In this document: piece by piece, positions 3,916 to 36,146 of the stretch | Layout of the letters: every line of letters begins with the position of its first letter | Numbering within the stretch: the first letter of the stretch is position 1 | Origin: Deltaproteobacteria bacterium | GTDB taxonomy: Bacteria; Desulfobacterota; DSM-4660; Desulfatiglandales; Desulfatiglandaceae | DNA length: 43,787 bases | NCBI GenBank assembly: GCA_019308785.1 | Contig: JAFDHL010000032.1 | Location: 1 to 43,787 of the forward strand | Direction of reading: 5' to 3' | The notes under the pieces: model-generated | What the model saw: the letters and a program-made list of their open reading frames with translations, nothing else | Database searches by the model: none | What the model was told of the DNA's origin: nothing | Translations under genes and position numbers: made by a program

Positions 3916-6900
3916 TTGGCACAATACGATGTAGATCTTCGGGAATACTGGCGTATTTTAAAAAAACACAAATTAACGGTCCTTCTTGTTGTTTTTGTAC
4001 TAGGCATATTCAGCACCTCTTTTGCCATCCTGAGGGCCCCTACCCCTCTTTACACCTCTGTTTCCAGCGTAAAATTTGAAAAAGAAACCACCGTAGAGGG
4101 CCTCTATGCCAGAACGCTCTCATGGTCTTCTGCGGACGATATTGAGACCCAGATCTCTATTATCAAGAGTTATTCAATAATGCAGAAGGTGGCTGAAAAA
4201 CTGGGAAAGATCCCTAAAGGGGCCGTATCGGAGAAGGCTCTTTTGAAATCCAGCATAGCGGAAGCGGTTAATGACCTTCAGGCTAAGGTTAAAGTTTCAA
4301 GAGAGACCTACACCAACATCATAAACATTGAAGTGACGGATACCAACCCGGCTTTTGCCCAAAGACTTGCAAATACCATCGCGTTAATTTTCAAGGAGGA
4401 ACACGCTCGAGAACAAAACAGGCGCACAGTTGATGCACTGAAATATATTTCTGTGCAGTTAGAGGAAGCACGGCGAAAACTCCGGGAATCTGAAGATGAA
4501 TTTAACAGGTTCACACAGGAAAACCAGTTGCTTTCTATAGACTTGCAAAGCGAAAACCTGTTCTTAAGGGCCAAGGAAATAAAGGATAAGATAAGAGATC
4601 TGGATGAGGCTGAGAATGAGTTCAATGAGTTGCACCTGAAGCTGGAGCAATTCCTAAAAGACCCGTCAGCTACTGGCACAAACCTTTTTTCAGCTCACGC
4701 CAATAAACAGTATCAAGATGCCAATGACACCCTGGTAGAGCTTGTACTTAAAAGAGATTCTTTATTGAAGGACTACACGGCCAAGCATCCTGAGGTTATA
4801 GAAATAGAGCGCAAGACAATCGAAACTGCTCGAAAGATGGTAATGATAACCCAATTGCAGATCAGCAGTATAAATAATAAGAAGGTGGATCTAAAAAAAG
4901 AACTGGAGATTGTTGACAAGAAAACCAGTGAGTTGATGGAAAAAAAGCTCGAATATAATCGGCTGAAAAGAAAAGTTGACTCCTATAATGATATGACCGC
5001 ACTTCTGGAACAAAAGAATCAGGAGGCATCCATAAGAAAGGCTGAGAAACCAGAGGAAATTACCATTGTCAGGCCTGCTTTTCTCCCAACCTCCCCAATT
5101 AATCCACCGAAGACAGCGGCTACAGGAATGATGGGTGTGATCGTTGGCCTAATTCTCGGGATAGTAATCGCCTTTATCGTTGAAACCTTTGACACCTCTC
5201 TTGGGGCCATTGCAGATGTGGAAGAGACGCTCGGGACTCAAGTCCTGGGTGTCATCCCTCAAGGGGATATCAAAAGTATCTTGGAGAGCTTGAAGGACAC
5301 AGGTCCCAAAGGCGCACATAAAGATTCCTTTAAACTGAATATGTCCCTTGTGTCTCATTTTGCACCCCAGTCCATTATGGCAGAAAGCTTCAGGGGACTC
5401 AGGACCAACATTCAGTTTCGCATCCTGGATAAAAAGGTAAAAACGCTCAGTGTTACCAGCGCATCCCCACAGGAGGGGAAAACCATGGTTGCCATCAACC
5501 TGGCCATAACTATGGCTCAGGCTGGAATGAAAACACTCCTGGTGGGATCTGATTTGAGAAAACCCATGTTGTCGAAGGTATTTGGTATAGAAACCAGCCC
5601 GGGACTGACTGATGTCTTGATTGGAAATTATTCCTGGAGTGATGTGATAAAGACCATTACAGATGTCATAATCGGAGAAATGGACTTTGATGAGGTGATG
5701 TTTACACCTGGTCTTGATAACCTCCACATAATGACGAGCGGCACTATACCGCCCAATCCATCAGAACTAATAGACTCAAAGCGACTTGAAGATTTTATTG
5801 AAGAGGTAAAAGATGACTATGATATTATCATCTTTGACACCCCCCCAATCCTCTCCACGGCTGATCCCTTGATATTAGGGGCCAAGGTCGATGCCGTGGT
5901 CTTTGTATACCGTATAGGGAGTGTGTCAAGGGGTCTCCTCAAGAGGTCTACCCTCCAGTTGTCACAGGTCAAGAGCAACCTCATGGGTGTGGCCTTAAAT
6001 GGCATAAAGGCAGAGGTGAGCCCTGATTTTCAAGGCTTCAAATACTATAAATCCTATTATGCCTACGGGGAAGAAGGAAAAGGAGAGAAAGAGAAAAGGA
6101 AAAAGAGGAGAGGCGGCGCTTTAAAGATTCTGATGATATTGATAGCACTGGCTCTATTAGTCGTCGGGTTGCTCTGGCAAGGTGGTGTTTTGCCCATTGA
6201 AAAATATCTGTTTAAAAACAAAGGATTCTCAAAAGAGATCAGCAACAGGGCGGTGTCCTCAAGTAAGCCCTCGCAACCCATCAAGATGCCGGTTGTGTCT
6301 GTCGGTTCCGGAAAAACGGTCCACGCGCCGCAGGAACAAATCTCAGTTGAGGAAAGATCCCTGCAACCGATTAAGGAACCCGTTTCGCTCGTTGGTTCTG
6401 GGGGCTCGGTTCCATCACCTGAGAAAGAGGTTGCAGAAAGCAATTTGAAAATCTCCCGAGCTACTGAAGAGAACCTGCTCTCGCGACCAGCCAGAGTGTT
6501 CGTGAATGTAGCCGCTGCAAACCTGCGTTCAAGGGCTACAACAGAATCATCTATACTGTATAAGTTAAAAAGGGGGAGCGAGGTTACCCTGGTAAAACAG
6601 AAGGGCGAATGGTATATTTTGAAGTTTAAAGATGGCCGTACAAGCTGGGGGCATCAAAGCCTTTTCCTCCGCAACGGCAACACTTATGAATCCGCAGTCC
6701 TCTCACAGCCCAACGAAGAAGCAGAGAGCAAGTTCGTTCTTAAGGTCGACACTGGTCGCGTCCGTGAAAAACCCTCGTTTGAGTCTCAAATAAAGTACCT
6801 TCTAAAGAAAGGAGATACTGTAACGCTTCACGAGGCGAACGGAGATTGGTTTCTTGTGGAACTTGAGGATGGCACCCTTGGCTGGGCATACAAAACTCTC

Positions 6901-6951: not shown

Positions 6952-7389
6952 GTCCGCGCCTGTGGAACACTATAAGTTTCGGAGCCAGCCCTTACCCTTC
7001 AAGCAATGTGTATGGATTTGAATCGTTTTAGTACAAGGTAAGGCAGAGAATTCGCTATGAAAAATACCTCCGGCCAAACCACTATTCAACTCCTTCTCCC
7101 ATTAATAATTCTACTGATTATTGCCGCTGCCTTTGCCTTTATGATGCCCGAATTATCAACCCTCCAGGCATTTTTACTGGGGGGAGGCATCATCTTTTTT
7201 ATCATCTGTTTGGCCAGCACGGAAGCCGCCCTATATCTTCTTATATTTTCCATGTTACTCAGTCCTGAATTTGTTGTTGGCACAACTAAAGGAGCCTCTT
7301 TAGGTCGGGGCGTGACATTAAGGTTTGATGATTTTGCGATCCTCATTATCGGGTTCAGCTGGCTTGCAAAAATGGCCATTAATAAGCAA

Positions 7390-7417
7390 TTGGGCCTGTT
7401 CCTTTGGGCCTGTTCCT
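7390..7417. repeat. 14-nt perfect tandem duplication inside the polymerase gene
   Basis: TTGGGCCTGTTCCT occurs twice back to back (7390-7403, 7404-7417). The extra 14 bases shift the frame and bring a TAA at 7417-7419 into frame. With one copy, the reading is KQLGLFLKTPLNKPIGYY. Confidence 0.95.
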
Positions 7418-7609
7418 AAAAACGCCCCTCAACAAACCTATTGGTTATTATATCATCGTCTGCCTGAGCTCTACTCTCTTGGCATCAGTATTTGGAAGCG
7501 TTGATTTAAAAACCGGATTCTTCTTTGTGCTTAAGTATTTTGAATATATGTTGATATATTTCATGGTGGCCAATCATCTAAAAGATAGGAAGCAGATACA
7601 ATACTTTCT

Positions 7610-7683
7610 GTGGGCCATGCTGATTACCTGCATCATTGTTTCGCTCGTGGGCCATGCTGATTACCTGCATCATTGTTTCGCTC
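7610..7683. repeat. 37-nt perfect tandem duplication inside the polymerase gene
   Basis: A 37-base unit beginning GTGGGCCATGCTG and ending GTTTCGCTC is present twice without mismatch (7610-7646, 7647-7683). The peptide LITCIIVSL is encoded twice in different frames. 14 + 37 = 51, so the two duplications together restore the original frame, but only beyond the stop created by the first. Confidence 0.95.
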
Positions 7684-8516
7684 ATAGGAATAGCTCAAAT
7701 CCCTGAAGGCGGTAGAGTCTCAGCACCGTTTGAGGGAGAGGTAGGTGAACCGAATACCTTTGGAGGTTACCTGCTTTTTATGATCTGTATCACTACGGGC
7801 CTGTTCTTAACCGCCACCGTTTTTAGAGTTCAATTGATATACGGTATCCTCATATTCCTGTTTGCCATACCATTGCTTTATACCGAGTCCAGAAGTTCAT
7901 ATCTTGCAACGATTCCCGCCCTGCTGGCCTTTGTCTGGTTTTCGGAAAAAAGACAAGGGGTCTTTCTGATACTTGTGCTTATTGGTCTTGTTCTACCCTT
8001 CATTGCCCCGAATCCTGCAAAGGAAAGAGTTGCCTATACGTTTGAGCAGGGCAAAGATCGCACTGATGTGGTGGAGATATCAGGGATAAAACTGGATACC
8101 TCAACGACTGAGCGTGTGAAAGGCTGGAAAAGGGTTGCCAGGGATTGGATCAAGCATCCCATTTTTGGCTTTGGCGTCACCGGTTATGGATTTGTGGACG
8201 CCCAGTATTTCAAGGTCCTCATTGAAACAGGTGTCCTTGGTTTATTTACATTTTTTATCCTGATGTCCAGGATATTTGCACAGTCCTACCGTATATTGAA
8301 AGAAACACATGAACCTTTCGAGAAGGGCCTTTGCATGGGCTTTTTGGCCGGTTTTATAGGGCTGCTAGTGCACTCCATTGGCGCAAATACCTTTATTATC
8401 GTGCGAATAATGGAACCCTTCTGGTTCGTACTGGCCATGGTGATCATGATACCGAGCCTAAAAGGGGAGAGTGGAGAGTTAAGAGCGGAGAGCTAAGTTC
8501 CATTTTCTCTATTTGC

Positions 8517-8585: not shown

Positions 8586-8873
8586 ATGTCATTAAAGGTA
8601 GTTACAGCCCTTAAGGCCCGAAAAATACTGGGTACGATAATGAATGCAGTATCATTCGGCAGCGACCAGTATATTGTAGAACGAAAAGGGATCCCTATGG
8701 TGGCAATTATTCCAATTAAGAGATTCAAACAAATGGAAAAAGCGAGGCAGCATTTTTTTAGTAACATGTCAAAGATTAGTGATTCTTTTATTGGCGAAGA
8801 TCCTTATAAGCTCGACCAGATTTTGGAAGAAGCAACACAGGCAGCCAAAAATATCGAAGTCTCTCAGGGATAG
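8586..8873 (+). CDS. Phd/YefM-family antitoxin
   Basis: A 95-residue protein with the Phd/YefM N-terminal DNA-binding fold: VVTALKARKILGTIMNAV, then QYIVERKGIPMVAIIPIKRFK, the usual beta-strand pair. Its C-terminal helix-rich tail (about residues 60-95) would be the toxin-neutralising part. AGGGGG at 8571-8576 is a good ribosome-binding site for the ATG at 8586. It begins right after a 22-bp palindrome and ends 6 bases before the PIN-type toxin gene, the standard antitoxin-first layout. Phd-like antitoxins more often pair with Doc or RelE-type toxins, but Phd/PIN pairs are known. The frame is intact even though its partner is broken. Confidence 0.85.
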   Translation: MSLKVVTALKARKILGTIMNAVSFGSDQYIVERKGIPMVAIIPIKRFKQMEKARQHFFSNMSKISDSFIGEDPYKLDQILEEATQAAKNIEVSQG

Positions 8874-14406: not shown

Positions 14407-16652
14407 CCGGCAAGAAAATCAGATTAATCCACCTCGTGGAGGACCTTAAAATCGGGGGTCTGGAGCGCGTTGTCGAAACCCTGGCCGACAGGCTTGACAG
14501 GTCCAAATACGATGTGAGCATCTGGTGCCTTGCCGGAGGCGGGGCCATCGCGGACAAAATAACCCGTAAGGGACATGACCTGCAGATACTCAATCTCAAG
14601 ACGTACCACAACCCCATCAACATACTTTCTCTCGCCCTTAGGCTCAGGAGGCATAAGGTAAAGGTGCTCCATGCCCATGGGTATTACGCGTCCACCATGG
14701 GCAGGCTTGCCGCTCTTTTGGCCCGCGTGCCCATCGTCCTGTCGCACGTCCATACCGTAGGAATGCAGTTGAACCGAAGGAACTTGTGGGTGGAAAGGAT
14801 TCTCGGCCTGACCACAGACCGCGTCATCTGTTGCTCGGAGGCTGTGAGAGATTTCATGGTCTCCCGTGCGGGCATAGACCGGCAACGGACAGTGGTCATT
14901 TATAACGGAGTGACCTGCCCAAGGCCGTTATCCCGATCCGTTCAGGAGGATAAAGACAATTTGGTCCGAATCCATATCAGTGCCTCTTTGGTCGAGAACA
15001 AGGGACACCGTTATCTTTTTGAGGCTTTTGCCAGAATAGTCCAACATCATCCGAATGCCATGCTTTCCGTTGCAGGCGACGGCCCGCTTAAATCCGATCT
15101 TTTGAAATATGCAAACGATCTCGGGATTGGCAACCGTGTCGAATTTTTAGGGCTGGTTGACGACATCTGGCCGGTTGTTGCGATAACAGACATTTGTGTG
15201 TTGGCCAGTGTCGATAGGGAGGGACTGGGGATAGCCCTAATAGAGGCCATGTGCCAGGGTAAGCCTGTTATCGGCACACGGGTGGGGGGAATCACCGAGA
15301 TTATTGAAGACGGCGTCAATGGATATTTGGTGCCTCCCAAAAACGTGGAAGCCCTGGCTGGACGGCTTGGAACTTTAATTAACGGCAAAACCGCCCGGCA
15401 ACGTATGGGAAAGGCTGGGTACGCCAAGTTTAGAGAAAAATTCGATGCAAATATCATGATCGGACGTATCGAAAATGCATACGATACATTGGTCGCAAAA
15501 AAGGCTCGTGTCAGGTATTCGGTCTTGTACCTGCACAACTCGGTCAATATCGGCGGGGGTGAGCAGAGCCTTTTAAACCTCTGGCGGAACCTGAACCCGG
15601 ACAGGTACCGCCTCCATCTGCTGATCCCGTCCCGCGGCCCCCTGGTGGAAGAAGCACGTCCCCTTGGCATGGAAGTCCATTATTGCCAGGTTCCCCAATT
15701 GCGTCCGAAAAACCTCGTGTCCATCTCAAAAACCCTGGCCACACTGTCACGCATCTGCTGGCATGAACGGATTGACATCATCCACTCCTACAGCCCCAGA
15801 AACAATGTCCTGTCCGCCGTGATCGGTCGCGCAATGGGCATCCCGGTCATCTGGCACGAGCGCAACCTCGTTTTTGGAAAAGAAACGGATATCTCACGCA
15901 GGCTCTGGTTTCTGCCCAATGGGATTATTTGCAATTCCAAGGCCGTTGCGGAAAGATTCCGGCTTTCATCCGGAATCCCGGACAGGGTCCGGGTTGCCCT
16001 CAATGGAGTGGACGGAAAAAGATTTTCGCCCGGAGATCCTCCGGAAGCAATTTTGAAAGCGTACGGCCTTGAAGGGAAGAGGGTCGTGGGCCTGGTTTCC
16101 AATCTGGGCGGGCGCAAGAACCCGGATTTTCTCCTGGAGGCTGCCCCGACCATCCTTAACAGGTGTCCTGACGTGGTTTTTCTTTTCGTGGGCGGTGAGT
16201 TTTCCGAAGACGACAAGGGACGCAAACAGGAACTCACGCAGCGGGCCGAAAGCCTCGGCCTGCGTGGCCACGTTGTGTTCACGGGTTTTATTCCCGATCC
16301 CTCCGGGCTTATCCGAACGTTTGACGTGGGAGTTGCCGTGACGGAAAGAGAAGCCTGCAGCCGGGCCATTCTGGAAATCATGGCCACGGGCAAACCGACA
16401 GTGGGCTTTGACACGGGCGGGAACCCGGAACTGATTGACGATGGAGTGACGGGTGTTCTCGTGTCTGTCGGGGACATTTCCGCTTTTGCCGACGCTGTTT
16501 GTCGTATCCTGGAAAACAAAGGCATGAAACAGCGCATGGGCCGCACGGCCCGGGAACGTATGGAGCGGTGCTTTGACGTCAAGGTTAATGCAAAAAGGAC
16601 CGAGGCCATTTATGAAGGTCTTGTCCTGCAGGCGCGCAAGGAAAGCCTTTGA
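14403..16652 (+). CDS. Tandem GT4-GT4 fusion glycosyltransferase
   Basis: One 749-residue frame holds two complete GT4-type glycosyltransferases. The first (about 1-365) has RLIHLVEDLKIGGLERVV, an acceptor-side HAHGYYAS, and the donor site ALIEAMCQGKPVIGTRVGGI with the E-x7-E pattern. The second starts at about residue 370 with VLYLHNSVNIGGGEQSLLN, has IIHSYSPRNNVLSAV, and its own donor site REACSRAILEIMATGKPTVG. The start is ATG 14403, overlapping the methyltransferase stop as ATGA; the longer in-frame upstream extension is a shadow of that gene. Both halves keep their key residues, so the protein may add two sugars in succession. GC content is visibly higher than in most neighbours. Confidence 0.88.
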   Translation: MTGKKIRLIHLVEDLKIGGLERVVETLADRLDRSKYDVSIWCLAGGGAIADKITRKGHDLQILNLKTYHNPINILSLALRLRRHKVKVLHAHGYYASTMGRLAALLARVPIVLSHVHTVGMQLNRRNLWVERILGLTTDRVICCSEAVRDFMVSRAGIDRQRTVVIYNGVTCPRPLSRSVQEDKDNLVRIHISASLVENKGHRYLFEAFARIVQHHPNAMLSVAGDGPLKSDLLKYANDLGIGNRVEFLGLVDDIWPVVAITDICVLASVDREGLGIALIEAMCQGKPVIGTRVGGITEIIEDGVNGYLVPPKNVEALAGRLGTLINGKTARQRMGKAGYAKFREKFDANIMIGRIENAYDTLVAKKARVRYSVLYLHNSVNIGGGEQSLLNLWRNLNPDRYRLHLLIPSRGPLVEEARPLGMEVHYCQVPQLRPKNLVSISKTLATLSRICWHERIDIIHSYSPRNNVLSAVIGRAMGIPVIWHERNLVFGKETDISRRLWFLPNGIICNSKAVAERFRLSSGIPDRVRVALNGVDGKRFSPGDPPEAILKAYGLEGKRVVGLVSNLGGRKNPDFLLEAAPTILNRCPDVVFLFVGGEFSEDDKGRKQELTQRAESLGLRGHVVFTGFIPDPSGLIRTFDVGVAVTEREACSRAILEIMATGKPTVGFDTGGNPELIDDGVTGVLVSVGDISAFADAVCRILENKGMKQRMGRTARERMERCFDVKVNAKRTEAIYEGLVLQARKESL

Positions 16653-16654
16653 CC

Positions 16655-17777
16655 ATGAAAATCGGCATTGACGCAAGGGAAATCCAAAACGGCGTGGTGA
16701 CGGGCATCGGGAGGTCCCTTGCCAACTTCCTGGAGTATTTTGAGGCACACGACCAAAAACACGTCCTTTTCCTTTTTTCCGAAAAGCCCTTGCCTATGCG
16801 GTTTTCCGACAAGATCGGTCAGGTGGTCATCCCCTCCTGCCCGACGTTTTTCTGGGATCAGGTGAAGCTTCCCCTGGCCATCAAGGCCCACGGGATTGAT
16901 TTTTTCTACTCTCCCTACTACAAGGCTCCTATGCTTACTCGCACCTGTACTGTCAATCAGGTACTTGATTTGATGTTTCTTGTGTTTCCTCTTTACCGAA
17001 AAAAGTTGGGGATTTTGGGAAGATATTACTATGCCATATTTGGAAGGGTGTTTGCCCGAAAATCAGTCAGTATAATCACCGATTCAGAACATGCGAAACA
17101 GGATATAATAAGACTCTGGAGGATTGAGCCGGAAAAGATTGCGGTGATTCCTTTGGGTGTCGGAAATCGGTATGCCTGTTAAGGATATTGAATTGCTCGC
17201 CCGGGTCAGAAAGGAGCTTGGCCTGCCTGATAGATATGTGCTTTATCTCGGTAACTTCAAACCTCACAAAAATATTGAGTCGCTCGTAAGGGCTTTCGGG
17301 AAAATAGCCGGGGGATTCCCCGAATACAAGCTGGTCCTGGCGGGGCCGCTTGATGAACACGGTCTTAAGATCCAAAATCTTGTTGCCGGTCAAGAACTCA
17401 TGGATAGGATTGTTTTTACTAACACCATCAGGGAAGAAGATCATCCGGAGGCCCTGTTGTCGATGGCAGACCTTTTTGTCTTTCCTACCTTATACGAAGG
17501 TTTCGGCTTGCCCCCTTTAGAAGCCATGGCTTGTGGCACTCCTGTAGTTGCATCAAACCTTACAGCGGTGCCCGAAGTTATAGGTGATGCAGGTGTAATG
17601 GTAAATCCGCTTGATGTTGATGAACTGAGTCGAGCTATGGCAGATTTGTTAGCTGATCCTGAAAAAAGGGAGTGTTACTCTCAAAAAGGCCTGGAAAGAT
17701 CCAGGCTCTTCAGTGAAGAGGATACCTCAGGAAAAATTTATAGGCATATTATTAAACTGATAGAGGATATAAAATGA
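16655..17777 (+). pseudogene. GT4 glycosyltransferase split by a frameshift
   Basis: The first part (16655 to about 17173) is the N-terminal half of a mannosyltransferase-like GT4: KIGIDAREIQNGVVTGIGRS, FFYSPYYKAP, IITDSEHAKQDI and AVIPLGVGNRY. The second part continues in another frame from about 17175 with PVKDIELLARVRKELGLPDR, YVLYLGNFKPHKNIES and the donor motif FPTLYEGFGLPPLEAMACGT to the stop at 17777. Joining them needs one base lost or two gained near 17174. As written, translation ends at 17180-17182. Downstream translation could restart at GTG 17157 or ATG 17172 but would yield only the C-terminal domain. ATG 16655 is the chosen start (AAGGAAAG upstream). Confidence 0.82.
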
Positions 17778-18761
17778 AAATTTTAATCACGGGCGGCGCG
17801 GGATTTATAGGGGCCAATTGTGCCACTTATTTTGCTAATAAAGGTCATAAAGTTGTTCTTTTTGACAACCTATCACGAATTGGCTCAGATAAGAATCTCC
17901 AGTGGATCAAAAATGTATGTTCGGTCGAGTTTGTAAAAGGAGATGTGAGGAAATTTGAAGATCTGATTGATTTAGTTACTCAAAAAGGGCCATTTGATTT
18001 AATCCTTCACATGGCTGCTCAGGTGGCGGTTACAACGTCCGTTGTAAATCCACGTGAGGATTTCGAGATTAATGCCTTAGGCACCTTTAATCTCTTAGAG
18101 GCCATTCGAAAGTATGACCCGGAAACAACTTTAATTTATGCCTCTACCAATAATCGAAAGAGATGGTCGATATATTTACCAGGACCTGCCTGAAGGTGTT
18201 GACGAAAAGCGGAATCTTGACTTTCATTCCCCTTACGGATGCTCAAAGGGTTCGGCTGATCAGTACTGCCGGGACTACTATAGAATCTATGGTCTGAAGA
18301 CGATTGTGATGCGGCAGTCGTGCATTTATGGCTATCGTCAATTCGGGGTTGAGGACCAGGGTTGGGTTGCCTGGTTCTGCATAGCCGTCGCATTAGGAAA
18401 ACAGATCACCATTTACGGCGACGGCAAACAAATTCGGGACGTCCTTTTTATCGATGATCTTGTCCGGGCCTATGAACTTGCGTATGAGAAAAGGGATCGG
18501 ATTGCAGGCAGGGTATACAATATTGGCGGAGGTCCAAAAAATACACTCTCGCTTCATGAACTCATCCGGTATTTGGAAAAGCTCAAAGGCGAAAGGATTC
18601 CGTTGGCGTATGACGACTGGCGACCAGGAGATCAGAAGGTCTTTATTGATAATATCTCTTTAGCTGAAAACGATTTTGGATGGAAGCCGGTTATAAAGAC
18701 TGATGAAGGAATAGAAAAGCTTTACAAATGGACATACGAAAACAGGCATATTTTTGAGTGA
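17774..18761 (+). pseudogene. NAD-dependent sugar epimerase (CDP-paratose 2-epimerase-like), split by a small deletion
   Basis: The N-terminal half is a clear extended short-chain dehydrogenase with ILITGGAGFIGANCATYF (NAD site), LFDNLSR and LILHMAAQVAVTTSV. It runs to IYASTN at about 18150, after which the frame is wrong. The true continuation is PLPIIERDGRYIYQDLPEGV, SPYGCSKGSADQYCRDYYRI (the YxxxK catalytic pair) to the stop at 18761. Relatives have a KVYGGMED-like segment between ASTN and LPII; it is absent here. The 10-mer CTACCAATAA lies at the junction and could encode both STNK and LPII edges, so recombination between two copies would remove about 32 bases, which fits the observed frame change. 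Overlaps the previous gene by ATGA. Confidence 0.8.
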
Positions 18762-26829: not shown

Positions 26830-26874
26830 TTTATTTAGATTGCCAGTTAAAAATGTTCCAAATGGAGGGGAAAG

Positions 26875-27204
26875 ATGAAAAAGCATGATAAAGATCCTGA
26901 CCCTCAAAAAACGGAGAAGAGAGAAGACAGGCCCGATGAGCAGAGGCGCGAATTCATCAAAAAGCTGGCCTGGGTAACTCCTGTGGTTACAACCCTTCTG
27001 ATCACGCATGATTTTTCCACTCCCGATTCTACCAAGGCGCAGCCGGTGTGTGTCAGACAATGTGCATGTCGCAGGGAATCCCCGTGCAGGACGGTCCAGC
27101 CGTGTCGGAGACAGTGTTGTGTGCAGACTATCCAGCCGTGTAGAAGACAGCCATGCAGGCGAGAGCCATGTCGCGTAGAGCCAGTATGCGTTCGGCAATG
27201 TTAA
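26875..27204 (+). CDS. Tat-like Cys/Arg-rich peptide, candidate modified-peptide precursor
   Basis: A 109-residue protein in three parts. Residues 1-23 are highly charged. Residues 24-43 resemble a twin-arginine signal: QRREFIKK then the hydrophobic LAWVTPVVTTLLI, with TKAQP at 53-57 as a possible cleavage area. Residues 59-109 hold 12 Cys and 12 Arg, arranged as repeats (QPCRRQ twice, CRREPCR), and both ends read VCVRQC. A strong ribosome-binding site (GGAGGGG) precedes the ATG. It sits directly before a radical SAM/PqqD gene, so it is a good candidate substrate of a peptide-modifying system. It could instead be a metal-binding or disulfide-rich exported protein. No named family was recognised. 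Confidence 0.75.
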   Translation: MKKHDKDPDPQKTEKREDRPDEQRREFIKKLAWVTPVVTTLLITHDFSTPDSTKAQPVCVRQCACRRESPCRTVQPCRRQCCVQTIQPCRRQPCRREPCRVEPVCVRQC

Positions 27205-27306
27205 CAATAATAGTGAAATAGCCTGCCTTTGTTGCCTTTATTCAATCACTTAGGCACAAGGACATCCCCGCATCTTCCCGTCAGTTTAATACTATTTCTA
27301 TAATAC

Positions 27307-28914
27307 ATGATGCCAGATCCGGCCCAAAATACAACTATGAAATACCATGACCTGGATAAGAAATTTCTGGTTCTTAAAAAAGATTCATTTTTTGTCCCTG
27401 GCCCGAAAAGAGGGGCGATTTATGATATCAGCGCCCACAGGCTCTATCATCTTGAGGAAAGACTGGCCGGCATTTTAAAACGATCATTAGAAGGGCTTAG
27501 CGTGAAAGATGCCTTCACTAAAGTGGGAATTGCTCGTGAAGATGAAGCGAAAATAACTCTTGAAATGCTTCTCAATATGAGCTGTATTTCAATGGAGGCA
27601 AAGGCTATGGCCTTTCCTGATGTCAAGATAGAAAAGTCTCCTGTAAAACCAAGGGTGGCGTGGCTTGAACCCACAGACAGGTGTAATCTTTTTTGTGTGC
27701 ACTGTTATGCGGAAAGCCGTCTTGGACGGAAGGATGAAGAGCTTTCCACAGAAAGATGGTTTTCGATCATAGATGAACTTGAAGAGATCGGTGTGGAGCA
27801 AATCGTTGTTACCGGTGGCGAGCCGCTTTTAAGGAATGATTTGCTTGAAATCCTGAGACGTATTTTAAGCAAGGAAGGGCTCCAGTATATTCAAATACTG
27901 ACCAACGCGAGTCTCTTTGCCCCTTCCCCCCTGTTAGATTTTATTGCTGAGAAACAGGTTGGTGTTGGGATTTCTTTTTATTCACACAGACCGGAGGTTC
28001 ATGACCAGGTAACCCGGACTCCCGGAAGCTGGGAGAAGACTGTAAATGGCATTAGGCTCCTGGTGGACAAGGGCATTAGTCCTGCTGCCAATATTGTGCT
28101 TACAAAAATTAACGAAAGAGATGAAAATGATACCAGGAAGTTCCTTGTTTCACTTGGGCTTGAGAACGAAAATATTATCAGCAATGTTGTCCTTCCCACC
28201 GGCAGGGGCTGTCACAGTGATTACCAGATAAAGAATTACGATTATTTCATTAGAAAGAGTTATGCCTTTGATAATTGTTTTGGACCCGGTGGGTGGAAGG
28301 ATTATCAGGGGACCTGCTGGCGGGGGAAATTTACCATCAAATCGAATGGAAAATTGAGCCCCTGTACCATGTGCCGAGAGATAGAGCTGGGAGACATCCG
28401 TCACAACAGCTTGAAAAAACTAATAGAAGAGGGGGCCTTTGATACTGTCTGGGATATTGACTTTGATTCCACCAAGGGGTGTTCTGAATGTGAATTGCGC
28501 TATGCCTGTTCAGATTGCCGTGCCTTGACCTATGCATTTACAGGGGATCTTTATGCCAAAGACCCCACCTGTCCGTATGATCCTCACACCGGCAATCCCG
28601 CAGACCTGTTTTTTCCTCCTTTGTTTCGTTCACCATCTTTTTCTCTGAAAGCCAAGCCAAAAAGAAGAGAAGATATTGTACACAGCCGGGTAGGAGAAGA
28701 ACTGGTTCTGTCCAACAGGGAAGAGGGAATACACCATAACCTGAATGCTGTGGCAGGAGAAGTGTGGGCTCTTCTTGATGGTGAGCATTCCCTTGAGACG
28801 GTTGTAGATGTCATCGGGCAACGGTTCGACAGAGAGCGGTCACTCCTTGAAAAAGACATTATTCAGCTTGCAGAACAGTTTGCCCGGCTCGGATTGTTGG
28901 AACATGGCCTATAG
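27307..28914 (+). CDS. Radical SAM/SPASM peptide-modifying enzyme with terminal PqqD-like domain
   Basis: A 535-residue fusion. Residues ~15-95 form a small winged-helix-like region (SAHRLYHLEERLAGILKRS), possibly a peptide recognition element. The radical SAM core has the cluster motif CNLFCVHC (C126, C130, C133) and VVTGGEPL (GGEP 170-173). A SPASM-type region follows with Cys in TCWRGKF, LSPCTMCREI and GCSECELRYACSDC, fit for one or two auxiliary iron-sulfur clusters. The C-terminal ~85 residues (HHNLNAVAGEVWALLDGEHS) are PqqD-like. Such enzymes crosslink or alter ribosomal peptides; the Cys-rich peptide gene just upstream is the likely substrate. Start choice among ATG 27307, 27310 and 27337 is uncertain as no good ribosome-binding site is seen. 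It overlaps the kinase gene by 11 bases. Confidence 0.9.
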   Translation: MMPDPAQNTTMKYHDLDKKFLVLKKDSFFVPGPKRGAIYDISAHRLYHLEERLAGILKRSLEGLSVKDAFTKVGIAREDEAKITLEMLLNMSCISMEAKAMAFPDVKIEKSPVKPRVAWLEPTDRCNLFCVHCYAESRLGRKDEELSTERWFSIIDELEEIGVEQIVVTGGEPLLRNDLLEILRRILSKEGLQYIQILTNASLFAPSPLLDFIAEKQVGVGISFYSHRPEVHDQVTRTPGSWEKTVNGIRLLVDKGISPAANIVLTKINERDENDTRKFLVSLGLENENIISNVVLPTGRGCHSDYQIKNYDYFIRKSYAFDNCFGPGGWKDYQGTCWRGKFTIKSNGKLSPCTMCREIELGDIRHNSLKKLIEEGAFDTVWDIDFDSTKGCSECELRYACSDCRALTYAFTGDLYAKDPTCPYDPHTGNPADLFFPPLFRSPSFSLKAKPKRREDIVHSRVGEELVLSNREEGIHHNLNAVAGEVWALLDGEHSLETVVDVIGQRFDRERSLLEKDIIQLAEQFARLGLLEHGL

Positions 28915-29734
28915 CTTTTCCCTCAGATATCTTGACACATCTCTGGTCTTTAAGTCCGCCAAGGCCGCCCCAATCGATCATATCTCCTTTATTTACGGAA
29001 AGATGCAAGAAAATTCGCCGTCCGAAAAAAGGAAGGTTTATACGATAAAAAAAGGGATTAGGGGCTACAGCCTCATCCATAATAAAAATCGTATGTTCAG
29101 GAATTTCGGCCTTGATACAGCCATAGAAAATATTGAGATTTCAATTGAAATGACGGTGGTATCTGAAAATCCTGGAGTCGTGTTTTTTCATGCAGGTACG
29201 GTTTCAGATATGGAGGGCAATATTTCCCTGATTGCCGCTGAAAGCGGCGAGGGAAAGACAACCCTTTGCGCCATGTTGGCGCAGAGGGGACTCTTTTCGG
29301 AGGGCGATGAACTTGTAGGTATTTCCCCTGAAATGCCTCTCAGGCCAATTCCCTTTAAAAAGGCATTGAAGGTGAGAAAAGAGAGTTTGCCTTTTCTAAT
29401 GGAAAGTGGAAAGAGGCTTATTATAGAAACAGAAAAACGTGGCGAAAGCAATTTGATATATTGGTTGCCGGATAATATCGCCGATACGGTTCCAGAAACT
29501 AATAAGGAGATTCGGAGGGTTTTTTTCCTGCGCTTTTCTCTCGAAGGACCAAATAGCGTTTCGCATGTATCAGCGCAGGAAGCGATAAAGAGACTTGCAG
29601 ACGCATGTCATGATTTTTCAGAGAAGAGATCGTTGGCTATGGGGACTATACTCTTTATCGTCAATCAAGCAGAGATAATTGAGATCGCTTACAATCACCC
29701 GGACTATGCCGTTTCATGTATCCAGGATGTTTAA
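28904..29734 (+). CDS. HPr-kinase-like protein (HprK-related kinase A type)
   Basis: A 276-residue protein with a P-loop, AAESGEGKTTLCAML (about residues 112-126), placed as in the C-terminal kinase domain of HPr kinase, followed by FSEGDELVGIS, whose acidic residues resemble the HprK second motif. HprK-related kinases that travel with PqqD-like proteins and nucleotidyltransferases are a known but biochemically uncharacterised group, and this gene keeps that company. ATG 28904 is chosen, giving an 11-base overlap with the radical SAM gene, so the two are coupled. Its stop shares TTAA with the stop of the convergent methyltransferase gene. It probably phosphorylates a protein, peptide or small molecule; the target is unknown. 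Confidence 0.8.
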   Translation: MAYSFSLRYLDTSLVFKSAKAAPIDHISFIYGKMQENSPSEKRKVYTIKKGIRGYSLIHNKNRMFRNFGLDTAIENIEISIEMTVVSENPGVVFFHAGTVSDMEGNISLIAAESGEGKTTLCAMLAQRGLFSEGDELVGISPEMPLRPIPFKKALKVRKESLPFLMESGKRLIIETEKRGESNLIYWLPDNIADTVPETNKEIRRVFFLRFSLEGPNSVSHVSAQEAIKRLADACHDFSEKRSLAMGTILFIVNQAEIIEIAYNHPDYAVSCIQDV

Positions 29735-31122
29735 GGTTTTTTTCTTAATATGAGGGCATGAAATACAGACGGACTACCCTGGGAGCCTGCCTGTTTTAGT
29801 GAACTGAATCGTAGATTGTAGATATGGGGATAGAGATCACCTAAGGCTTGTTTCAACATTTCAGGCGTAAAGGCTAATATGGGGAGGGGATCCTGGCTGA
29901 GATGAGATAAAAGGCTTTGATTCAGGATTGTCAGGGACATCCTTTCAAGCGTTGTTACATCAAGGTCCATGTCGAAAAAGTCAGCCATTTTTTCTAACCT
30001 GACATCAAATCCGATTCTGATTGCAATTTCCTCGAGATGGCCAAAGTGGATGGCATATTCCGTGTGATCAGGGAGATGGACCGCTACAGGGTATCTCCAT
30101 GGGCTTCCATACTCGGTGATAAGCGCAAATCCTCCTGGAGTTAGCAGGAGATGGATATGTTCTAAAAGTTGCCAGGCACCGAGGTTTACCAGAAACTCGG
30201 GGAAGGCATCCTTCACCGTAACATCAAAATCATTAATGTATTTGAGGGCCGGAATTGCTTCTGCGGGAATTTCGTGGCCGGTGTTCCTGTTCATCCATTC
30301 CTTTTTCACAAATACAGAGGGAAGATCGGCAATCATCTCATTGGCGATAATGAGGGAAAATTTTCCTGCGATAAATGGCGGAGCTAATGCATCACCCAAT
30401 ACCTGTGCGATTGTATTTGAATACATCCGTGTATATTCCTTCTGGCCTTCTAATAATACCGGGGAGAGTTCCAGGAGGACGTAATAGAGGTTTTGAAAGA
30501 CAATAGATTGATTCTGATGGAGGTAGCCTAAGAAATCTCTTGCCACAAAGCCTGTTCCACCACCAATCTCAAGAATGTTTGTGCATTTTTCCATAATTTC
30601 CATTTCACAGAATTTTTCTGCCAGCCTTGCCCCGTATGAAAGTCCTCTCAGAGCTGGATGAGGCTGCTGGTATACATGGGAAATGGTTGTTTCGTGGGAT
30701 TCGAATTGCTCGATGGCATCGGTGATTTGTCCTGTGTGGTATTCGTGTAACAGTCCCGTATTATCAATGAATTCGTGAGCAGAATCCCGTTCGCTGAGGA
30801 TCTCCATGGCGATCTCCATATGAGGAGTCGGGGATGGATGCTTTTCAGTATCTTCGATGAACTGGAGGAAAAGGTCTGGTTCCTTTGAAAACTTGTCTGA
30901 AGTGGACTTCACCTGTGTTTGGTCCATATTCAGTTTAGCGGCAATATCGGTTAACGTAATCTCGCCCTGACAGAGGGTTAAAATACGCGCCTCATCATCT
31001 GTTATCTCTCTGATAGTTGGTTTGTTTTCCTCAGGGGGACCCGCTAAGAAAGGTTTTTTTCCGGGAGAGTAATACAGGATCATGCAGGGAAGGAGGATAG
31101 GCTGTCGGTTCATGACAGTCAC
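29731..31122 (-). CDS. MidA/NDUFAF7-like methyltransferase with N-terminal winged-helix-like extension
   Basis: A 463-residue protein. The first ~95 residues carry a helix-turn-helix-like pattern (DDEARILTLCQGEITLTDIAAKL), which may be a peptide- or partner-binding module. The methyltransferase part has motif I NILEIGGGTGFVARDFL (about 182-198), YYVLLELSPVLLEGQ (acidic strand end about 218) and LIIANEMIADLPSV (about 257-270), matching the SAM-MT family that includes MidA and the arginine methyltransferase NDUFAF7. Translation starts at GTG in a GTGA overlap with the PqqD gene. A protein-arginine methyltransferase relative next to a peptide with 12 Arg is notable. The family call is moderate; target is inference. 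Confidence 0.75.
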   Translation of the reverse strand: MTVMNRQPILLPCMILYYSPGKKPFLAGPPEENKPTIREITDDEARILTLCQGEITLTDIAAKLNMDQTQVKSTSDKFSKEPDLFLQFIEDTEKHPSPTPHMEIAMEILSERDSAHEFIDNTGLLHEYHTGQITDAIEQFESHETTISHVYQQPHPALRGLSYGARLAEKFCEMEIMEKCTNILEIGGGTGFVARDFLGYLHQNQSIVFQNLYYVLLELSPVLLEGQKEYTRMYSNTIAQVLGDALAPPFIAGKFSLIIANEMIADLPSVFVKKEWMNRNTGHEIPAEAIPALKYINDFDVTVKDAFPEFLVNLGAWQLLEHIHLLLTPGGFALITEYGSPWRYPVAVHLPDHTEYAIHFGHLEEIAIRIGFDVRLEKMADFFDMDLDVTTLERMSLTILNQSLLSHLSQDPLPILAFTPEMLKQALGDLYPHIYNLRFSSLKQAGSQGSPSVFHALILRKKP

Positions 31123-31439
31123 TCAGCGAGACTTGCAGCAGGTGTTAGTGTCAGCAGGTCTTGATCCCGCAATTGGAGCAGGAGGGCAATAAAATCTTGT
31201 TTTATAAGGTCTGCTTCGGAATCAAAATGCCCTATGAGTTCATCGAGAATATCACGACATCTGCGTTTTCCATCAATCCTTTCCCAGATGAAGGAGGCAG
31301 TTGGATTTAGAACCCAGAGTTTTTCTTCCGCCTCTTTCCGGGTATCACGTCTTACAAGATAGTCTTCATCTTTCACCCTGCGGACCATGATTGATTCATC
31401 TTTAAAGGGTATGGCATTCATGTCCAGATCAGTTGACAT
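31119..31439 (-). CDS. PqqD-family peptide-binding protein
   Basis: A 106-residue stand-alone PqqD-like protein: EKLWVLNPTASFIWERIDGKRRCRDILDEL is the typical pattern in which a short beta-region leads to the NxTAxxIW helix. PqqD proteins bind the leader of a precursor peptide and present it to a radical SAM enzyme. It resembles the group found beside HprK-related kinases. It is encoded on the minus strand, coupled to the methyltransferase by a GTGA overlap, and diverges from the nucleotidyltransferase gene across 154 bases. Together with the PqqD-like tail of the radical SAM protein, the island thus has two PqqD modules. Confidence 0.88.
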   Translation of the reverse strand: MSTDLDMNAIPFKDESIMVRRVKDEDYLVRRDTRKEAEEKLWVLNPTASFIWERIDGKRRCRDILDELIGHFDSEADLIKQDFIALLLQLRDQDLLTLTPAASLAE

Positions 31440-31593
31440 TATAGAAAGTCTCCAGAAAGTTTTAATGAAACAGGGTATTACTTATTATCAAAAATTAACA
31501 ACAGGCACAAGTATCAAATGAGACGAAAAGCAATATACCGCATTATCCGCGAATAATGGAAAAAGAATTTTGAATTGATTTATTCTTGGTTCA

Positions 31594-32823
31594 ATGATAG
31601 TTCCAAATTTTGTTATTTCCTTCCAAGATGAACTCATAATGATCGTTAATCAAAATATGAATCTGACAAGAGAAGAAAAGTTATTGAGACTGATTGCCGC
31701 GCAGAGGCTGGAAAGCACGCAAGCTGCAGCCATAAGGCGTGAGGTCAATAATGGGCTTGAGTGGTACAGGCTTATCAATATCGCGTTATATAATGGACTG
31801 GCCTCTTTATTGTACCGGCACTTAAAAGACCTTGAGCTGTTTCCACTTGCCCCGGAATGGTTTGAGGAAGCCCTTGAGAAGGTCTATAACAAAACAGTCT
31901 TTCATAATTTGAGGATACTTAGGTTCCTCAATGATCTGGGTCAAATTCTCAAGAAGGAGAATATTCCGGTAATTATTCTCCAGGGCGCGGCCCTGTTAAT
32001 GTCTGTTTACGATGATCCTGGTGTTCGCCCCATGGAAGATATAGATTTGATGGTCAGGCCGGATCATAGAAGGAGGCTTCAGCGGATTTTTCAAGAGATG
32101 GGATTTTCGTCTGATTCCATCTACCCTGATACATACAGGAAAGGGATTATCTATATTGATATCCATGTTGATATACTCTCAAGCGAACGTATCCATGCAA
32201 GAAAATGGGTTATGAATACAGGGCCTGAAGATATCTGGAACTCGGCGCTTCCATTGATGGATAAATCAATACCCCTTTACAGGCTTACCCCGTTTGATAA
32301 CCTGATTGCCCTTTCCAATCACCTGTTAAAACATAATCTTGAACGCCTGAAATGGTTTATGGACATACGGGAGATTATACTGGCTGAATCCGGCACATTC
32401 GACTGGGACAGATTTGTCTTTCGCTGCAGGGAAAGCGGGAGCGACCGCTGTGTTCTCTATATATTGCTGCTGGCAAGACGTCTTTTGGGTTTGGAAGTGC
32501 CTGAGATAATTTTTGACAGCTTTGGAAGAAAGAGGCTTTCTTCTATTGAAAAAACGATTCTAAGACTGCGGCTTAAAAATAAAGATGTGGGGCGACTGTT
32601 CCAGGTCTTATGGCTTTTTCAAATTAATAAGAAAAGTGAACAATTTCGATTTATTATTGAGAATATCTTTCCAAGGAAGGAAATTATGAATCAGATTTTT
32701 GTGTCCTCTCCTCGCGTGCCTCCCAGCTATACGCTTAGATTTTTCAATATCCTCTCACATGGGCTTTATGACATTTTCTCAGCTTTCCGCCATATCATTT
32801 TCAGCAGGCTCCCGCGGTTATGA
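31594..32823 (+). CDS. Nucleotidyltransferase-fold protein (NTP_transf_5 type)
   Basis: A 409-residue protein with a nucleotidyltransferase-like core of the uncharacterised NTP_transf_5 family. Key strands are IPVIILQGAALLMSVYDDPG and RPMEDIDLMVRPDHRRRL (about 127-160), with the paired acidic residues of the active site in EDIDLMV, and IYIDIHVDIL further on. The C-terminal 200 residues are helical, with ALSNHLLKHNLERLKWFMDI typical of the family. Members occur with HprK-related kinases and PqqD proteins in peptide-modification and exopolysaccharide loci, as here. The start is uncertain: ATG 31594 is given, but ATG 31639 (MIVNQNMN) is equally possible. Possible role: nucleotidyl transfer to a peptide or sugar; no evidence from sequence decides. 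Confidence 0.85.
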   Translation: MIVPNFVISFQDELIMIVNQNMNLTREEKLLRLIAAQRLESTQAAAIRREVNNGLEWYRLINIALYNGLASLLYRHLKDLELFPLAPEWFEEALEKVYNKTVFHNLRILRFLNDLGQILKKENIPVIILQGAALLMSVYDDPGVRPMEDIDLMVRPDHRRRLQRIFQEMGFSSDSIYPDTYRKGIIYIDIHVDILSSERIHARKWVMNTGPEDIWNSALPLMDKSIPLYRLTPFDNLIALSNHLLKHNLERLKWFMDIREIILAESGTFDWDRFVFRCRESGSDRCVLYILLLARRLLGLEVPEIIFDSFGRKRLSSIEKTILRLRLKNKDVGRLFQVLWLFQINKKSEQFRFIIENIFPRKEIMNQIFVSSPRVPPSYTLRFFNILSHGLYDIFSAFRHIIFSRLPRL

Positions 32824-34979: not shown

Positions 34980-36146
34980 TTAGATTCCTTCAAATGCCCT
35001 TTTGTAAATATCTTCCGCAACCTTGGCCGTCATCGGTCTTGGATTATTCATGATCGGTCTTTCTATCTTCATTGCAGCTTCGGCCATATCGGAAATAGAA
35101 TCTTCCGGAATCCGGAGATCCTTAAGTGTTCGCGGAATCCCAATATCCCGGGCAAGGTCCCGGACTGCTTTCACCACAAGGGTAGCCGTATCACGCTCCG
35201 AACACCCTTCTATTTCTTCTCCCATTGCCCAGGCAATACGCGCGAACTTGTCTATATTCCCGGGATAGTTGTATTCAAGTACATACGGAAGCATTAATGC
35301 ATTTGCCATGCCGTGGGGGACATCAAAGAACGCCCCGAGGGGATAGGCAAGCGCGTGGACTGCCCCAACCCCGGACATGGCTAAACCCAGGCCGGCCAAA
35401 TAGCTGGCCTTCATCATAAAATTGCGAAACCGGATGTCACTCCCACTAAAGACAGCTCCCCTCAAATTGTCAGAGATGATCTCAATAGCCGTGAGGGAAA
35501 GCGGTTCACTCATGAAGTGGGCTTAAAGGGAAGTAAAAGACTCAATCGCATGGGTCAGGGCGTCCATACCGGTGGAGGCGGTTACATCCGGAGGGAGTCC
35601 GAGTGTGAGTTCAGGATCCAGAATGGCCGTGTGAGGATAAAGAAAAGGGCTGTTGATGCCGCCCTTTGACTTTGTTTCCCTCATTGTAAAGACCGATGTG
35701 AAGGTCGCCTCACTTCCTGTGCCTGCCGTAGTCGGAACCATAATTGTGGGAAGCCCCGGTTTTTTTACGAGGTTAAGGCCAACATAATCCAGGGCCTTAC
35801 CCTCATTCTTACCAAGAATAGCAATGGCCTTGGCAACATCCATTGTGCTGCCACCCCCAACGGCTATGACGCAGTCTGCCTTCTCTTTTTTTGCCAGTTC
35901 AGCCCCCGTATCGGCCAGGGCAGGCGATGGTTCAGGCGTCACCTCAAAGTAAGGGATGGCCTTGACAGGGCTTTCCTGAAAGGTTTTCTGAATACGTGCG
36001 CACATTTCTGTTTCACTCAGGGCTCGATCTACAACAAGAAGCGCCCTGGATGCTCCCAGTAACTGACATTCAGATATAATCTGATTAATGGCGCCAACTC
36101 CAAAAATCGTCTTCTTCACCCCTTCAGTGGTTACCAAACTCTCCAT
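34980..36146 (-). pseudogene. Iron-containing alcohol dehydrogenase interrupted by one in-frame stop
   Basis: A 389-codon frame that is continuous apart from one TAA at 35523-35525. The upstream part (36146-35523) has TTEGVKKTIFGVGAINQI, CVIAVGGGSTMDVAKAIAI (NAD site) and STGMDALTHAIESF. The downstream part (from about 35520) continues as SEPLSLTAIEIISDNLRGAV and GAVHALAYPLGAFFDVPHGM. Asp and His of DALTHAIE and the two His of HALAYPLGAFFDVPHG form the iron site and are kept. Relatives have a Lys-Ala pair (SKKANPISD-like) exactly where the stop falls, so AAA or AAG to TAA fits. Either a recent nonsense mutation or a sequence error; readthrough cannot be excluded. Confidence 0.85.

Follow-up and report, generated by a model that had tools for sequence, protein, structure and literature searches.

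Whether a short cysteine-rich peptide is the substrate of the enzymes encoded beside it, and how many of those neighbours belong to the same system, are the questions raised by a locus in a 43,787-nt stretch of deltaproteobacterial DNA (contig JAFDHL010000032.1 of assembly GCA_019308785.1, order Desulfatiglandales; the whole stretch is referred to below as the window). Six adjacent open reading frames (ORFs) are found there, within an exopolysaccharide cluster, and a first-pass annotation had taken all six to be one system. The evidence instead points to a three-gene unit encoding the peptide, a fusion of radical S-adenosylmethionine (SAM), SPASM and PqqD domains, and an HprK-like kinase, which in at least two bacterial phyla probably makes chemically stapled, exported Cys-rich peptides. 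We put at about 0.6 the probability that it is a maturation and export system for a Cys-rich peptide resembling those of ribosomally synthesized and post-translationally modified peptides (RiPPs).

The first-pass annotation had proposed looking in related genomes for the same gene order next to a short Cys-rich frame, and this gave a positive result in four more. Genes for a peptide with Cys repeats and a signal sequence like those of the twin-arginine translocation (Tat) pathway, a radical SAM-PqqD fusion and a kinase recur in this order in loci L007, L009 and L010 and in genome G440. Locus L010 (genome G393), whose peptide has a CX3 repeat and whose kinase is likewise HprK-like, is from a distant deltaproteobacterial metagenome-assembled genome (MAG), and the others are from MAGs of Kiritimatiellia/Verrucomicrobia; in G440 the operon is split between two contigs, the peptide gene and the start of the radical SAM gene lying on a different contig from locus L008. 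The radical SAM and kinase reading frames overlap in L007, L009 and L010 as they do in the window, where the probable kinase start codon lies within the radical SAM gene (11-nt overlap with its stop), and the window enzyme groups with the four other operon enzymes (support 93/86). Four further relatives of this enzyme were found in 395 genomes of the phylum, and a scan with one genome per species gave 34 radical SAM loci. No homologue was detected in the rest of the window's taxonomic order, first among 60 relatives and then in the 395 phylum genomes, and simple vertical descent within that order is therefore unlikely.

That the peptide is the substrate had been proposed from adjacency, and this gained support from co-occurrence. 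Across the 395 phylum genomes and 193 genomes of the Kiritimatiellia class (about 585 in all), strong matches to a peptide profile were confined to the five genomes with this type of radical SAM enzyme, so that peptide and enzyme co-occur in five of five; the profile was seeded with four of the operon peptides, and the independent part of this result is the G440 match and the absence of strong matches elsewhere. Two weak matches were rejected: the one in G067 is a Tat Fe-S protein, and the one in G402 is a Tat-like peptide that lacks Cys and is encoded in an exopolysaccharide cluster, next to an HprK-like kinase.

By inspection, the five operon peptides have the sequence features of Tat substrates: an invariant twin-Arg motif (RR-x-F-[ILV]), a hydrophobic stretch and a signal-peptidase site. 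In the window peptide the motif is followed by hydrophobic LAWVTPVVTTLLI and the signal-peptidase-type site TKA↓QP, and such small-X-Ala sites are plain before the first Cys in four of the five peptides (TKA↓Q in the window, SEA↓Q in L009, SQA↓Q in L007, VHA↓A in L010). The earlier count of 12 Cys and 12 Arg in the last 51 residues is exact; the next-highest Cys count per 51 aa among the 140 window ORFs of at least 60 aa is 5. Only the window peptide is Arg-rich, the other operon peptides having 3–5 Arg. In the peptides of the relatives, Cys gaps of four account for 7/7, 13/14, 11/12 and 12/14 of the total (p < 0.0001).

The radical SAM enzyme has the set of cluster-binding Cys and the leader-binding domain expected of a SPASM peptide maturase. 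All ten expected Fe-S ligands are invariant in the family alignment (A3), namely the CX3CX2C motif (C126, C130 and C133) and seven Cys of the SPASM domain (Pfam E 6e-5) for two auxiliary clusters (C337, C353, C392, C395, C401, C404 and C422). A strand-helix domain of PqqD topology, resembling RiPP recognition elements (RREs), is predicted at both ends of the protein; the N-terminal one is modelled with moderate confidence (predicted local distance difference test, pLDDT, about 52–69), and the C-terminal one matches the lasso B1 leader-binding RRE proteins TbiB1/TfuB1 in profile searches. The best solved relatives by profile are the sactisynthase SkfB (E 1.7e-30) and then PqqE, while by fold SkfB, SuiB and the sactipeptide thioether synthase 5why lead, with EpeE, PqqE and anSME also matching. 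These matches argue for modification of a peptide under guidance of its leader; the case for thioethers is less firm. No curated NCBIfam model scored above its cut-off for the enzyme, all maturase models being far below.

The third gene of the unit had been called an HprK-related kinase in the first-pass annotation; its start had been placed at 28808, and homology makes 28904 the probable one. Its product matches HPr kinase 1ko7 by profile (E 1.6e-5) and is modelled with a PEPCK-type fold. It is a distant relative of the HprK_rel_A family, at 53.9 bits (37–71 bits for the operon kinases) against the 200-bit cut-off of TIGR04352.

In the proposed scheme, the Tat-type signal sequence of the peptide would double as a leader, bound by the radical SAM/SPASM enzyme through its two RRE-type domains, the N-terminal one and the C-terminal PqqD. 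The enzyme would then link Cys of the core at several points, most likely through SkfB-like thioethers, and the HprK-like protein may act on the same precursor, perhaps by Ser/Thr phosphorylation, a step that is uncertain. The modified peptide would leave through Tat, signal peptidase cutting just before the Cys core, and could function in the envelope or as a secreted peptide. A more specific proposal is put forward only tentatively: that these peptides form a RiPP class whose Tat signal serves as leader for a two-RRE radical SAM enzyme, the cross-linked (perhaps phosphorylated) Cys-repeat peptide being exported rigid and folded. If true, it would explain the need for Tat, since the peptides would be stapled before they leave the cell, and it would offer a new class of candidate substrate for the HprK-like kinases that accompany PqqD proteins. 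The operon is compact, and its peptide is a candidate substrate for a family of radical SAM enzymes to which no curated NCBIfam model extends.

Several points weigh against this scheme, beginning with the seeding of the peptide profile. The Cys of the window peptide are irregularly spaced (a gap of four in 3 of 11 cases; shuffle p = 0.11), and, as regards the kinase step, its core has no C-terminal Ser and contains only one Ser and two Thr in all. The catalytic residues of lasso kinases, His-Lys-Asp-Asp (PMC9266682), are partly kept, as H-K-D-E in the window and L010, H-K-E-H in L007 and H-K-D-Y in L009; the acidic pair is D-D in locus L013 (see below), and phosphorylation is uncertain because these acidic residues are incomplete in most operons. 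The model of the radical SAM enzyme is of moderate confidence (mean pLDDT 65.7). TatC was not found in the window's genome, G000, a 95% complete draft in 399 contigs, nor in the 1.1-Mb G439.

The missing TatC in the G000 draft would suit an alternative in which the Tat-like segment is an RRE-binding leader common to HprK-associated peptides and not a Tat signal, export, if any, taking another route. Tat-like leaders without Cys cores do occur near HprK-like kinases in L083, L086 and L071 (one with KR for RR), in neighbourhoods of lasso, glycosyltransferase and exopolysaccharide types. This explanation is considered unlikely given the features common to the five operon peptides, a TIGR01409 TAT signal match in a peptide of a Woesearchaeota MAG (L015) and the finding of TatC in almost every relative (38 of the 41 genomes in that set, and four other genomes with the operon or a near form); TatC was not found in the L015 genome. 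Within the window's taxonomic order, PqqD and HprK-like kinases are also encoded with lasso-type machinery, with Tat-like peptides that have no Cys, or with a GCGCGC peptide and another kind of radical SAM enzyme, which suggests that the pairing of kinase and leader is broader than the Cys core. One relative from the same order (L084, 2662–7620, minus strand) encodes a peptide ending GCGGGCGCGCGSVL, a radical SAM/SPASM enzyme, an HprK-like kinase, a signal-peptidase-like protein, PqqD and NTP_transf_5, a row that looks like another undescribed peptide system. The cluster at 936–15342 of L083 combines lasso-type machinery with a Tat-like leader: it encodes two asparagine-synthase-type cyclases, three PqqD/HprK-like modules and a Tat-like peptide of 60 aa (KRDFLKK).

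Wider relatives of the radical SAM enzyme are without the C-terminal PqqD and, in the loci inspected, without the kinase, yet they too are encoded beside Cys-repeat proteins. At 8 of 30 loci, Tat-like Cys-rich ORFs are found on the strand of the radical SAM gene and no more than 1 kb away from it, compared with none in the 542 strand-kb of background that these loci provide. In Deltaproteobacteria (L003-L005, L014, L019 and L028) the neighbours are Tat-CxPx proteins with a peptidoglycan-binding domain; the fusion of the repeat region to this domain, seen at 8714–9238 of L014 and in its relatives, suggests a cell-wall anchor for the modified repeat. In L015 (5517–8645) three tandem Tat-type Cys/Pro-rich proteins directly precede the enzyme gene of this radical SAM/SPASM family, and in Firmicutes (for example L017, L022-L026, L030 and L038) the adjacent repeat proteins are rich in Cys, Pro, Trp and Arg and are not of Tat type. 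Near-perfect Cys repeats (CWPRQQ, CFPRP) of Sporomusaceae type were observed at 6856–7290 of L017, 8688–8963 of L022, 8630–9031 of L025 and 1741–2130 of L026, adjoining the same enzyme family, with tig/clpP near some and no signal sequence seen.

Cys-rich repeats without much else could instead belong to an exported, metallothionein-like protein that binds metal or clusters, in which case the radical SAM enzyme would make another modification (epimerisation, hydroxylation or Arg modification) or a cofactor on the protein. The C-terminal peptidoglycan-binding domain of the relatives classed as Type B implies that the product can serve a structural or sensory purpose, and the EpeE, SuiB, PqqE and anSME matches reflect a varied SPASM chemistry. 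Among solved enzymes, the nearest in both sequence and fold is nevertheless a thioether synthase, and the regular CX3 spacing in most relatives fits repeated local cross-links, so that this explanation appears improbable beside stapling of the peptide.

The six ORFs of the original island were recovered from the window's ORF list at the coordinates first given, and their domain assignments hold in Pfam and NCBIfam (Table 1). By their layout they form three transcription units, peptide-radical SAM-kinase (plus strand), PqqD-methyltransferase (minus strand) and NTP_transf_5 (plus strand), the second being convergent to the first, with the methyltransferase stop codon overlapping that of the kinase. 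Conservation is limited to the first unit, however, and the island had been drawn too large: the free-standing PqqD is not found beside the other operons, the convergent operon was seen at the window locus only, and tests of 11 related genomes gave no convincing homologue of the methyltransferase. NTP_transf_5 adjoins the radical SAM gene in one other locus only, L013 of Desulfobacterales, where it directly precedes it (E 3.4e-17 for the L013 partner) and is possibly an accessory of the system. The NTP_transf_5, radical SAM-PqqD and kinase genes of L013 adjoin HD-domain and ATPase genes matching those that start the exopolysaccharide cluster of the window (39% and 45% identity), and a Tat-like Cys-rich peptide is encoded on another contig of that genome. 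A plain sequence search gave no solved relatives of the methyltransferase or NTP_transf_5.

Table 1. Coordinates of the features of the locus within the window.
Feature	Position	Strand	Evidence or remark
Ribosome-binding site of peptide gene, GGAGGGG, strong	26864..26870	+	Sequence; 4 nt before ATG
Precursor peptide gene, 109 aa	26875..27204	+	Homologous peptides in four other operons (alignment A4; L054)
Tat-like motif RREFIKK of peptide, residues 24-30	26944-26964	+	
Cys/Arg core of peptide, residues 59-109	27049-27201	+	
Radical SAM/SPASM enzyme, 535 aa	27307..28914	+	Pfam Radical_SAM, SPASM and PqqD; alignment A3; AlphaFold topology; SkfB/PqqE/TbiB1 matches
N-terminal RRE-like domain, residues 21-89	27367..27573	+	Predicted topology: four strands, three helices
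C-terminal PqqD domain	28675..28899	+	Pfam PqqD E 3.9e-10; three strands, three helices
HprK/PEPCK-type P-loop kinase-like protein	28904..29734	+	NCBIfam TIGR04352 E 1.4e-14; same position in other operons
MidA/NDUFAF7-family methyltransferase	29731..31122	-	Pfam Methyltransf_28 E 4.5e-11; second gene of convergent operon
Free-standing PqqD protein	31119..31439	-	Pfam PqqD E 6.5e-14; first gene of convergent operon
NTP_transf_5 nucleotidyltransferase	31594..32823	+	Pfam E 3.6e-47

A single six-gene system would add MidA-like Arg methylation and, after phosphorylation, nucleotidylation or glycosylation by NTP_transf_5, in the manner of pseudomycoidin, which PsmK phosphorylates and to which PsmN adds a hexose (PMC9266682). 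The coincidence of an Arg-rich, irregular peptide with a MidA-like enzyme at the window locus only is suggestive, in a sample of one, and the position of NTP_transf_5 in L013 fits as well. This larger system is doubtful in view of the separate, convergent transcription units, the absence from the other operon genomes of any convincing homologue of the methyltransferase, an Arg activity of NDUFAF7 that is presumed from family knowledge, and the lack of support for a putative RRE at the methyltransferase N-terminus (hhalign probability 8.7).

Elsewhere in the window, a frameshift interrupts each of two genes, one for a glycosyltransferase and one for an NAD-dependent sugar epimerase (16649–17777 and 17774–18761), and an iron-type alcohol dehydrogenase gene (34980–36146, minus strand) has a single in-frame stop (ESFTSL*AHFMSEPL), which suggests assembly indel errors or gene decay. 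An O-antigen-ligase-like gene (7057–8496) is fragmented, and a short sequence (GHADYLHHCF) is repeated where it breaks.

The three-gene operon is real and recurring, and it is a variant of a peptide type that is so far only a bioinformatic prediction. TIGR04117 (Syntroph_Cxxx), the Cys-Xaa-Xaa-Xaa repeat radical SAM target protein, embodies the same idea of a Cys-repeat substrate, and PMC7470986 cites Haft and Basu (2011) as predicting radical SAM target peptides. The model matches over leader and core in L010 (E 3.5e-5, 23.8 bits), L009 (E 1e-4, 22.2 bits) and L007 (E 0.03, 14.3 bits), all below its 50-bit cut-off; the window peptide, which does not have Cys at every fourth residue, gave no match, and no member locus above the cut-off was reached in the sampled genomes. 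Seven loci with weak TIGR04117 matches in the phylum were found to lack the operon; they encode Tat proteins of Fe-S ferredoxin type, or the Cys stretch is out of frame or due to chance. The novelty first claimed for the locus is thus reduced by a family already named, and by the recurrence in the window's taxonomic order of HprK-like kinase, PqqD and NTP_transf_5 as a set, accompanied by lasso or radical SAM machinery; the part that stands is the proposed pairing of radical SAM peptide maturation with twin-arginine export, for which no paper was found among the open-access texts searched.

Other known systems share parts of this arrangement. The HxsA His-Xaa-Ser repeat system and the SynChlorMet cassette, which have two radical SAM enzymes each, likewise combine a repeat peptide with a SPASM enzyme; a peptidoglycan-binding-type domain, matched in the Type B relatives, is a further feature of HxsA, and the PqqD-related and ScmC members of the cassette match window proteins weakly, but the repeat is different and the matches are far below cut-off. 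The HPr-rel-A system (TIGR04352) resembles the window locus in having a distantly related kinase and an exopolysaccharide setting, the window kinase scoring far below the family cut-off. Lasso tailoring kinases and PsmK/PsmN bring an HprK-like kinase, PqqD and a nucleotidyltransferase-type protein to a ribosomal peptide (PMC9266682), whereas the window core has no C-terminal Ser, the acidic catalytic pair is incomplete, and neither a lasso cyclase (asparagine-synthase-like) nor a transglutaminase-like protease was seen on inspection of the window ORF list. The sactipeptide maturases SkfB, CteB, AlbA and StsB share an RRE, the radical SAM and SPASM domains and two auxiliary clusters with the window enzyme; the window system is set apart from them by its extra C-terminal PqqD, its kinase partner, its Tat-like leader and its longer Cys-repeat core.

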